Below, in pieces: positions 20,998 through 32,676 of a DNA stretch of 64,000 nt. The stretch covers positions 1 to 64,000 of the forward strand of contig CACHSA010000006.1 of the NCBI GenBank assembly GCA_902582405.1, read 5' to 3'. Positions within the stretch are counted from its first letter, which is position 1. Every line of letters begins with the position of its first letter. Below the pieces are notes generated by a model. It saw nothing but the letters and a program-made list of their open reading frames with translations, did no database searches and was not told the DNA's origin. Made by a program: the position numbers and the translations under genes. The stretch is from an uncultured Bacteroidota bacterium (GTDB taxonomy: Bacteria > Bacteroidota > Bacteroidia > Flavobacteriales > Flavobacteriaceae).

Positions 20998-21505
20998 AGG
21001 AAGAAAAATAAAATATAATAATTTAAAAAATGTAAGACCTACAACAGATAGGACAAAAGAAGCTTTGTTTAATATTTTGAACCAACATTTTGATTTGAAT
21101 CAAATAAGTGCTCTTGATCTTTTTTCTGGAAGTGGAAATATAAGCTATGAACTTGTTTCAAGAGGAGTAACAAAAATAACTTCTGTTGAAAAAAATATTC
21201 ATTGTGTTAAATTTATTAATAGTTTTTCTAAAACACTTGATGTAGAAATAAATATTGTCAACTCTTCTGCGCTTAAATTTTTAAAAATCACAAAATCTAA
21301 ATTTAATTTAATAATAGCTGATCCCCCTTACTCACATACAGAGGAAGAAATAGATGGTTTAATAGATTTAATTTTTACAAAAAAAATTTTAACGAGAAAT
21401 GGTTTACTTGTTATCGAGCATCACAAAAATAATCCACCCAAAAAAAATAAATTTTTGTTTGATGTTAGAACATATGGTAGTAATTCGCTAAGTTTTTTTA
21501 AATAA
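20972..21505 (+). CDS. rsmD: 16S rRNA (guanine(966)-N(2))-methyltransferase
   Basis: MRIIAGKFKGRKI...RPTTDRTKEALFNIL...LDLFSGSGN...IADPPY. Confidence 0.94.
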   Translation: MRIIAGKFKGRKIKYNNLKNVRPTTDRTKEALFNILNQHFDLNQISALDLFSGSGNISYELVSRGVTKITSVEKNIHCVKFINSFSKTLDVEINIVNSSALKFLKITKSKFNLIIADPPYSHTEEEIDGLIDLIFTKKILTRNGLLVIEHHKNNPPKKNKFLFDVRTYGSNSLSFFK

Positions 21506-21506
21506 A

Positions 21507-21805
21507 AAAAGCAGGTCATAAGCCGGATTCTGTCAAGTCTTACCATTTATCTAGGTTTTTGATTACTCAAAAACTCAATCCGCCTACCCCTCCGCAAAGA
21601 ACGAGCGATTCTTAAATGCAGATATATTTGGCGTTTCACCGTATAGAGTTTACATGATTTCACTACAGCTTACCTGTACATTCTTTCTGCTGCACTTGTC
21701 CTAATTGTTAAAATAACAACCGACGGGTATTACCCGCTATACTGCTCTATGGTGTCCGGACTTTCCTCTCTGTAATATAAGAGCGATAAGAAGACCTGCT
21801 CTTAC
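21507..21805 (-). ncRNA. rnpB: RNase P RNA (bacterial class A)
   Basis: Reverse strand contains GAGGAAAGTCCGGACACCATAGAGCAG (CR-I) and ACAGAATCCGGCTTATGACCTGC (CR-V/P1); 5' GAGCAGGTC pairs with 3' GACCTGC; ends followed by T-tract. Ends approximate. Confidence 0.93.
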
Positions 21806-30425: not shown

Positions 30426-32549
30426 TTACTTTTTATCCATTTTTTCTTTTAAATCAGCCAGAACATCTATATCCCCTAAAGTTGTTTTTTCACTTGATTC
30501 AGAGATGTTTTTACTCTTTTTTATATTTTTATTTCTTCTGTCGTCATTTTTAAAAGTCGAAGTATGTGAGGCAACTACTCTTTTAAAATCCTTATTAAAT
30601 TCAATAATTTTAAACTTAACTTTTTCGTTAAGATTTAGTTTAGTTCCATCTTCCTTCTCCATGTGTCTTGAAGGAACAAAGGCAGTTATATTTTCATTAA
30701 ATTTAATTGTTGCTCCTTTATCTACAATTTCTGTTAACTCGATTTCGTGAGTTGAGCCCTCAGAAAATTCTTTTGCATATTTGTCCCAAGGATTATCTTG
30801 AGTTTGCTTATGTCCAAGACTCAATTTTCTACCATCTACATCTAATTCCATTACGATTACATCTATTTTATCTCCCACAGTCAAAATTTCAGACGGGTGT
30901 TTCACTTTTTTGGTCCATGATAAGTCCGATATATAAACTAAACCATCAATACCTTCTTCAAGTTCAATGAAAACACCAAAGTTTGTGAAGTTCCTGACAA
31001 TACCTTTGTGTGTTGATCCAACAGGATACTTATTTGTAATATCTGTCCAAGGATCTTGTGTTAGTTGTTTGATTCCAAGAGACATTTTTCTTGATTCTTT
31101 ATCCATTGTGAGAACTTGTGCTTCAACCTCATCTCCTACATTAACAAAATCTTGAGCTGATCTAAGATGGGTTGACCAAGACATTTCGGAAACATGAACC
31201 AATCCCTCTACTCCGTCCTCAATTTCAACAAAGGCACCATAGTCGGCTATGACAACAACTTTCCCTTTGACTTTAGAGCCTTCTTTAACATCTTCTCCTA
31301 ATTTATCCCATGGATGATCACTTAGTTGCTTTAAACCAAGTTGAATTCTAGATTTATTATCGTCAAAGTCTAGAATAACAACATTGAGCTTTTGATCAAG
31401 TTCTAAAATTTCACTTGGATGAATAATCCTACTCCACGAAAGATCTGTAATGTGAATTAATCCATCAACTCCACCAAGGTCAATAAAAACACCATATGAG
31501 GTTATATTTTTAACAGTGCCTTCAAGAACCTGGCCTTTTTCTAATTGACCGATGATTTCCTTTTTTTGCTCTTCTATGTCAGCTTCTATAAGTGCTTTGT
31601 GAGAGACGACTACATTTTTAAATTCGTGGTTTATTTTTACAACTTTGAATTCCATAGTTTTGTCAACATACTGGTCATAATCTCTAATCGGTTTAACATC
31701 AATTTGGGAGCCGGGGAGGAATGCTTCAATTCCAAATACGTCAACTATCATACCTCCTTTAGTTCTGCATTTGACATAACCATTTACTATCTCTCCGCTG
31801 TCATGAGCATTATTTACTCTTTCCCAGGCTTTTATGGTTCTCGCTTTTCTGTGTGACAAAACTAGTTGACCTGTTTTGTCTTCTCTGATATCAATAATTA
31901 CCTCAACTTTGTCACCTATTTTTAAATTTGGATTGTATCTGAATTCATTCAAAGAAATTACTCCTTCTGATTTTGCGTTAATATCAATTATAGCCTCTCT
32001 ATCTGTGATATGCACAACGGTTCCTTCAATCAAATCTTCATCGGTTGTATCAACAAAATTTTCAGAAACTAATTTATCAAACTCTGCAATTTTCTTGTCA
32101 TCAATTTCATTTAGGCCTTCTTCATAAAGATGCCAATCGAAAGATGCTAGATCTTGGTCAATTTTTTCTTTTATTTTTTTTGGTTTTTCAGAAGATGACT
32201 TAACTATTTTTATTTCCTTCTGTTTATCGTTTTTAATTTTTGTAAACTTTTTTTCAATTTTTTGCTTAGATTCTGTCTTTTTTGGGGACTTTGGTTTGGT
32301 AGACTTGGAATCTTCTACTTTTTTTGATTTTGGCTTTTGAGACTTAGATTTAGCAGTTTCTTTTTTTTCTGAAACTGATTTAACTTTCTTAGGTTTTGTT
32401 TCTTTTTTTTGTGGTTTACTAACCTCTTTAGTTGAAGGGGTTTTTTGTGAAGTTTTTTTGGTAGTTAATTTTTTTGTGGTTGATGCAACTTTATTTTTAG
32501 TTTCATCTTTTTTGGGTTTTTCTTTCTTTTCTTTTTGTTCCTTAGCCAT
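30426..32549 (-). CDS. rpsA: 30S ribosomal protein S1 with long Lys-rich N-terminal extension
   Basis: Multiple S1 repeats (GVFIDLGGVDGLIHITDLSW etc.) preceded by about 132 Lys-rich residues. Confidence 0.96.
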   Translation of the reverse strand: MAKEQKEKKEKPKKDETKNKVASTTKKLTTKKTSQKTPSTKEVSKPQKKETKPKKVKSVSEKKETAKSKSQKPKSKKVEDSKSTKPKSPKKTESKQKIEKKFTKIKNDKQKEIKIVKSSSEKPKKIKEKIDQDLASFDWHLYEEGLNEIDDKKIAEFDKLVSENFVDTTDEDLIEGTVVHITDREAIIDINAKSEGVISLNEFRYNPNLKIGDKVEVIIDIREDKTGQLVLSHRKARTIKAWERVNNAHDSGEIVNGYVKCRTKGGMIVDVFGIEAFLPGSQIDVKPIRDYDQYVDKTMEFKVVKINHEFKNVVVSHKALIEADIEEQKKEIIGQLEKGQVLEGTVKNITSYGVFIDLGGVDGLIHITDLSWSRIIHPSEILELDQKLNVVILDFDDNKSRIQLGLKQLSDHPWDKLGEDVKEGSKVKGKVVVIADYGAFVEIEDGVEGLVHVSEMSWSTHLRSAQDFVNVGDEVEAQVLTMDKESRKMSLGIKQLTQDPWTDITNKYPVGSTHKGIVRNFTNFGVFIELEEGIDGLVYISDLSWTKKVKHPSEILTVGDKIDVIVMELDVDGRKLSLGHKQTQDNPWDKYAKEFSEGSTHEIELTEIVDKGATIKFNENITAFVPSRHMEKEDGTKLNLNEKVKFKIIEFNKDFKRVVASHTSTFKNDDRRNKNIKKSKNISESSEKTTLGDIDVLADLKEKMDKK

Positions 32550-32567
32550 TATTCTAAAATTTGTATC

Positions 32568-32605
32568 CTGTTAATAATCTGTGAAGCTTTAATTGAAATT
32601 AACAG
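32568..32605 (-). promoter_or_regulatory. Inverted repeat in putative rpsA 5' UTR
   Basis: CTGTTAAT (32568-32575) and ATTAACAG (32598-32605), perfect 8-bp stem arms. Confidence 0.5.
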
Positions 32606-32646
32606 AAGGGTTATTATTACTCCGCTCCACTTAATCAAAGAGTGTG

Positions 32647-32676
32647 CAAATATATACTTAAATCCATTATTAACAA
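32647..32676 (-). promoter_or_regulatory. Putative Bacteroidota housekeeping promoter for rpsA
   Basis: On minus strand TTG-N19-TATATTTG, matching TTTG/TAnnTTTG architecture. Confidence 0.55.

Follow-up and report, generated by a model that had tools for sequence, protein, structure and literature searches.

A predicted structured leader RNA and a recurrent lysine-rich N-terminal tail at the ribosomal protein S1 gene of Flavobacteriaceae

The rpsA locus

We analyzed a 64,000-nucleotide stretch of DNA (hereafter, the window) from an apparently marine, uncultured member of the Flavobacteriaceae with a small genome (1.36 Mb). The locus under study comprises the gene for ribosomal protein bS1 and the region immediately upstream of it, both on the minus strand. 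The coding region contains the following features:

30426..32549, minus strand: rpsA, encoding ribosomal protein bS1 (707 aa, six S1 domains), defined by an open reading frame (ORF) with its ATG at 32549 and by PF00575
32151..32549, minus strand: lysine-rich disordered N-terminal tail (residues 1-133, net charge +31), defined by composition, conservation in the genus and pLDDT below 50
32058..32099, minus strand: predicted helix (residues 151-164), placed by the phmmer register and AF2

The gene is a genuine rpsA. Six stretches across the 707-aa product match the Pfam family PF00575 (E=4.4e-67), and its best relative in the PDB, 9zcd, aligns to query residues 131-706 (E=7e-290), so that the multiple S1 (OB-fold) domains and the near-full-length match to bS1 chains place the product in the bS1 family. 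The tail stands ahead of the segment leading into S1 domain 1. AF2 predicts with moderate confidence a helix at residues 151-164 that lies in register with the N-terminal helix preceding the first S1 domain of E. coli bS1 (query residue 165 corresponds to E. coli residue 15 in the phmmer register), and we infer that it is the functional counterpart of that helix. The motif FDWHLYEEGL had been considered for the role of the E. coli uS2-docking helix and was dropped, since the phmmer register places the docking helix at residues 151-164.

Codons 1-133 specify 50 Lys, 16 Ser, 14 Glu, 13 Thr and 8 Pro, in agreement with a preliminary description of this DNA that had reported a lysine-rich extension of about 132 residues with about 50 Lys; the span given there (32154-32549) corresponds to codons 1-132, the ATG included. 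The same description supposed that the extension is disordered and reported no in-frame ATG, GTG or TTG within it, and both points stand: AlphaFold pLDDT is below 50 over residues 1-134, and the only near-start codons found after the initial ATG are six ATT/ATA codons at residues 98-130. It also argued that no S1 protein could have a complete first domain without carrying the tail, a view likewise upheld by the lack of an alternative start, by the presence of the tail in all seven genomes of the genus and by an unchanged distance between the upstream leader and the ATG. When 1,030 ORFs in 1.19 Mb of the genome sequence (about 87% of the total) are scanned, the richest 80-aa window of the S1 tail holds 33 Lys; the next-richest ORF reaches 25, and the mean is 12.0 (SD 3.4).

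Elsewhere in the window lie an ordinary class A RNase P RNA (Rfam RF00010, 191 bits; 21504-21802, minus strand) and two equally ordinary tRNAs (1226-1299 and 1866-1949). One metagenome-assembled genome (MAG) of the genus carries a second S1 copy (G006:C92:12932-14902; query residues 51-707, 86% identity), which is probably the product of strain mixture or contamination.

A structured leader RNA upstream of rpsA

The preliminary description had overlooked a predicted structured leader immediately upstream of the gene, which is the better-evidenced novelty of the locus. Its elements are:

32647..32676, minus strand: presumed promoter of the Bacteroidota type (TTG at 32676-32674, a 19-bp spacer and TATATTTG at 32654-32647), identified from sequence and conserved in the genus
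32555..32647, minus strand: predicted structured rpsA leader RNA with hairpins P1 and P2 and two loop-loop helices, based on covariance model R1, covariation and loop-loop tests
32619..32643, minus strand: leader hairpin P1 (5 bp, arms 32643-32639 and 32623-32619), covarying across relatives
32566..32607, minus strand: leader hairpin P2 (10 bp, arms 32607-32598 and 32575-32566), supported by covariation and followed by UACAAA
32581..32638, minus strand: loop-loop helices PKa and PKb, based on changes within the genus and permutation tests
32638-32635 with 32596-32593, minus strand: PKa, UUGA pairing with UCAA, read from sequence
32630-32624 with 32587-32581, minus strand: PKb, GUGGAGC pairing with GCUUCAC, read from sequence

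The pair formed by TATATTTG and TTG is one that we take, from its consensus, to be a Bacteroidota-type promoter. Its TAnnTTTG element adjoins the 5′ end of the leader, which runs for about 93 nt and ends 5 nt short of the start codon. The arrangement recurs in relatives, where P1 directly follows the promoter and is succeeded by P2 (CUUCUG...CAGAA) and then by UACAAA, mostly about 9-15 nt before the ATG; of 162 regions upstream of rpsA, 159 contain an AUACAA motif. Within the genus, PKb takes the forms GUGGAGC, GUGAAGC and GUGAAAC on one side, set against GCUUCAC and GUUUCAC on the other.

Support for this architecture was evaluated on an alignment of 36 diverse leaders made from sequence only with plain MAFFT. 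In this alignment 92.5% of the P1 and P2 cells are paired, and the two helices accumulate 71 two-sided changes, compared with 21.8 in shuffled alignments (none of 500 reaches the observed value) and 7-25 in slid versions of the helices. When 97 leaders are fitted to the model, an alignment that is biased towards the structure, the count is 200 against 50.6. The loop-loop helices were left out of model R1. For PKa and PKb separately, the pairing of a leader's own loops exceeds that of mismatched partners in every one of 20,000 permutations. Related leader sequences are not fully independent in such a test, but its two cross-half internal controls show no difference, which argues against relatedness as the cause of the signal. 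All four helices are hence supported by covariation or permutation tests, and on these comparisons the leader is almost certainly a real structured RNA. RNAalifold applied to the genus sequences alone returned a different, weak fold, the helices becoming clear only with order-wide sequences.

Model R1 matches 97 of 100 rpsA loci, once each, and has exactly one match in 40 of 41 whole Flavobacteriaceae genomes; 30 of these 40 matches were compared by coordinates with a known rpsA, and all 30 fall just upstream of it. In the genome of the window the leader is the sole R1 match, with a weak score (46.8 bits, E=0.0012) and a P1 that spans just 5 bp in this genus. Under stricter filters, 12 of 247 genomes sampled from the class have one R1 match each, and the eight matches that were fetched, three of them from another order, all lie directly before an S1 ORF. 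Shortened, weaker forms of the leader, with P2 and AUACAA, precede rpsA in further families. A consistent 5′UTR position before one r-protein gene, combined with a covarying secondary structure, marks the element as a candidate r-leader.

A search of Rfam 15 at the leader gave no match at the gathering score, nor anything plausible when the limit was relaxed to E of 5. Table 1 of the r-leader survey of Eckert and Weinberg (2020; PMC7247131) contains no S1 or rpsA leader, the term 'rpsA' is absent from its main text, and searches of the main texts of open-access papers found no description of a Bacteroidota rpsA leader. Within Rfam 15 and the main text of that survey, the leader is previously uncatalogued, and it is common to S1 genes across the family.

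Leader spacing and the start codon

The AUACAA motif lies 9-14 nt from the ATG in nearly all tail carriers and 11 nt from it in the window, the overall median being 14, and this spacing is alike in tailed and tail-less species. Since the distance from a conserved leader motif does not change with the presence of the tail, ATG 32549 is supported as the start; it is very likely the true one, and the tail itself can be taken with near certainty to be translated. The leader also occurs in species with tail-less S1 and is thus distinct from the tail.

In about 20 relatives (among them L008, L009, L046, L050, L053, L060, L070, L073, L078, L090, L097, L102 and L107) AUACAA stands 41-73 nt from the S1 ATG, compared with the usual 9-15; in L008 the extra stretch includes an AT-rich inverted repeat.

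Distribution of the tail

In the seven genomes of the genus the tail measures 132-134 aa and carries a net charge of +24 to +32; amino-acid identity across the tail window is 57-70%, yet the number of Lys residues and the net charge are kept. In one of these genomes (G001; L003, G001:C14) a serine codon of the tail, about 16 residues ahead of the S1 core, is replaced by an in-frame TGA, which could reflect either a genuine variant or a fault in the assembly.

In the wider set, a long basic tail (60 residues or more, with a net charge no lower than +4 and a Lys content of 17% or higher) is found in 26 of 165 related S1 genes, with MS024-2A and other marine MAGs among the carriers; parsimony on the S1 tree requires 16 or more changes to account for it. 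On that tree, basic tails are features repeatedly gained or lost in flavobacterial S1. Tail-less S1 is frequent among relatives, including members of the same small-genome clade. The tail as a unique oddity, which the preliminary description had implied, was rejected on account of this recurrence. Its statement that S1 normally starts only a few residues before the homologous block is accurate for Flavobacterium, with about 10-15 residues (PDB 9zcd, 591 aa; L242 and L245), but not for most other Flavobacteriaceae, in which an acidic or neutral segment of 30-35 residues takes the place of the tail. The prospect raised there that comparing rpsA N-termini across the clade would find the tail both common and already characterized is realized in part: the tail is recurrent, but searches of open-access papers found no published account of a Lys-rich S1 tail.

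Tail sequence varies by lineage (S/T/K/E in the window genus, AKKTT or AKKAAPKK elsewhere), and it is therefore composition, not sequence, that is shared. Among carriers of known genome size, 15 of 17 fall below 2.3 Mb, in an S1 set in which small genomes were deliberately oversampled, and GC content is below 0.34 in 19 of 26, tails being present also at loci with 40-43% GC. A small genome or low GC content was considered as the cause of the tails and set aside: the association is a raw one that receives no support from an independent-pairs test.

Two further kinds of S1 N-terminus were observed. In lineages other than the window genus, the basic tails of L129, L135, L142 and L153 consist of short, almost perfect tandem repeats (KKETKKKVSEKKSTVKSTTP, AAKKTT, ATKKT and ASKKTATKP), a pattern that suggests growth by repeat expansion. 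In three small-genome flavobacteria (L134, L136 and L167) S1 begins with an extra folded domain, which in L134 matches DUF2853 (PF11015, E=3.5e-36); the protein is a DUF2853-S1 fusion in L134 and, judged by eye, in L136 and L167.

Selection on the tail

Among five genus sequences, omega has a median of 0.37 (range 0.32-0.52) in the tail, against 0.02 in the core. Codon changes that preserve the amino acid occur in the tail at 0.55 times the core expectation (CI 0.43-0.68), even though its amino acids evolve more rapidly, and the dip stops at the tail/core boundary. The linker of IF2 in the same genus, a fast-evolving, Lys-containing control, has a ratio of 1.08 (CI 0.93-1.24), and its most Lys-rich window one of 0.83 with a wide interval (CI 0.45-1.29). 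Codon choice was rejected as the source of the low synonymous change, the AAA fraction being alike in tail and core and the IF2 linker normal. Low synonymous change in the tail next to a normal IF2 linker makes it likely that some nucleotide-level constraint acts on the tail RNA.

These data bear on two alternatives to a selected peptide. The first is that the tail is non-adaptive, a tolerant S1 N-terminus in AT-rich, reduced genomes filling with AAA-rich low complexity through slippage or drift. Such a process would suit the mostly small and AT-rich carriers, the plain tandem repeats (AKKTT or KKETKKKVSEKKSTVKSTTP, for instance) that make up several tails and the highly variable length and sequence of S1 N-termini, and the association with size and GC fails the independent-pairs test and hence provides no proof of selection. 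It is harder to reconcile with a net charge that stays between +24 and +32 throughout the genus while the tail sequences diverge, with the omega of about 0.37, with the occurrence of a comparable segment in no other protein among the 1,030 ORFs scanned and with the tails at 40-43% GC, and we regard it as rather unlikely.

In the second alternative, selection acts on the A-rich RNA that encodes the tail and not on the peptide: this RNA would offer S1 or the 30S an unstructured place to land behind the leader and would aid initiation or autoregulation. The synonymous dip ending at the core boundary, the IF2 linker control and the position of the tail region directly 3′ of the conserved leader RNA agree with it, on a test restricted to one genus. 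Nonsynonymous changes in the tail are still rarer than synonymous ones, however, the mildly low ratio of the Lys-rich IF2 window indicates that composition may explain part of the dip, and leader and spacing are identical in tail-less relatives. With these points combined, a landing site in place of a selected peptide seems fairly improbable.

Proposed functions of leader and tail

Bacteroidota ribosomes do not use Shine-Dalgarno (SD) pairing. The bS1 protein of F. johnsoniae stimulates initiation on an SD-less mRNA and is sub-stoichiometric on purified ribosomes, from which it is easily lost (PMC9976891). In E. coli, domain 1 of bS1 anchors on uS2; for Bacteroidota, bS1 has been suggested to act as an SD substitute that reads A-rich upstream sequence (PMC6847099).

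The leader probably controls the amount of S1. We take S1 as its ligand because rpsA is the adjacent gene, and we infer autoregulation by analogy with gamma-proteobacterial rpsA, for which bS1 is an autogenous repressor (PMC10931766). As an autogenous ribosomal-protein leader, the two-hairpin, loop-loop structure beside the start site would be bound or unfolded by S1, either free or on the 30S, and an excess of S1 would lower translation of its own mRNA. Regulation of rpsA through S1 in this manner appears reasonably likely. The tail might work as an electrostatic tether without sequence specificity, attaching S1 to rRNA close to its dock or to mRNA as it arrives. In SD-independent organisms this would lengthen the time that S1, itself loosely bound, stays on the 30S; the assignment as an RNA tether is a tentative one. 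The preliminary description had similarly pictured a tail that could tether S1 to rRNA or capture AT-rich leader mRNAs. An autoregulatory leader joined to an electrostatic-tether tail is, on balance, the explanation that we favor. Extended across the lineage, the same reading would have an undescribed, S1-responsive leader with two hairpins and two loop-loop helices controlling rpsA in Flavobacteriaceae and at least some other Bacteroidia orders, and marine-flavobacterial S1 repeatedly gaining polycationic tails that alter its hold on RNA on ribosomes unable to use SD pairing, a generalization that we advance with some reserve.

The tail might instead act off the ribosome, drawing S1 to the nucleoid, to RNA polymerase or to RNA-rich condensates. 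Tails rich in Lys, Ala, Thr and Pro are reminiscent of those of histone-H1-like and DNA-binding proteins, nucleic-acid-binding proteins are enriched in Lys-rich low-complexity regions (PMC6821194), and bS1 is able to associate with RNA polymerase (PMC10931766); we nevertheless judge an off-ribosome role improbable. Finally, the possibility that the tail is not made, with initiation at a non-canonical ATT or ATA near residues 98-130 and an untranslated frame upstream, can draw on the six such codons and on the TGA in the tail of one genus genome, but is very hard to sustain given that the leader motif stays at its usual 9-14 nt from ATG 32549 whether S1 is tailed or not, and that genus relatives keep the frame, with protein-like substitution.

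Searches of open-access papers found no description of how Bacteroidota dose S1. With an rpsA leader that is compact and covaries strongly, S1 dosage becomes testable in Flavobacterium johnsoniae, whose bS1 has already been purified (PMC9976891). S1 orthologues that naturally have or lack a tail provide a ready comparison for the effect of an N-terminal polycation on S1 binding and mRNA choice.

Comparison with known systems

The closest structurally characterized protein, the bS1 of a Flavobacterium johnsoniae-like species (PDB 9zcd, 591 aa), belongs to the same family and shares the core aligned from query residue 131; unlike the S1 of the window, both it and E. coli bS1 are without a Lys-rich N-terminal tail. 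Disordered, Lys-dominated segments on nucleic-acid-binding proteins, as here, include many low-complexity regions of bacterial L21 and the C-terminal Lys repeats of Streptomyces topoisomerase I (parts of PMC6821194 and references therein); S1 is not among the proteins reported in those parts, and the window tail is N-terminal, ahead of domain 1.

Autoregulation of rpsU (bS21) in Flavobacteriales is another case of an r-protein governing its own translation in an SD-less lineage, but it operates through an extended SD exposed in ribosomes that lack bS21, with no folded leader and with initiation largely independent of bS1 (PMC9976891). The flavobacterial r-leaders for S4, S15 and S16, together with that for L19, are covarying 5′UTR structures before r-protein genes of the same lineage, and the window leader differs from those in Table 1 of the survey in preceding the gene for S1 (PMC7247131). 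The initiation region of rpsA in E. coli and other gamma-proteobacteria is likewise a structured 5′ region in front of a gene without a canonical SD (PMC10931766); that element is described as conserved in gamma-proteobacterial families, whereas the predicted leader of the window consists of two hairpins with loop-loop pairing and is found in Bacteroidia.
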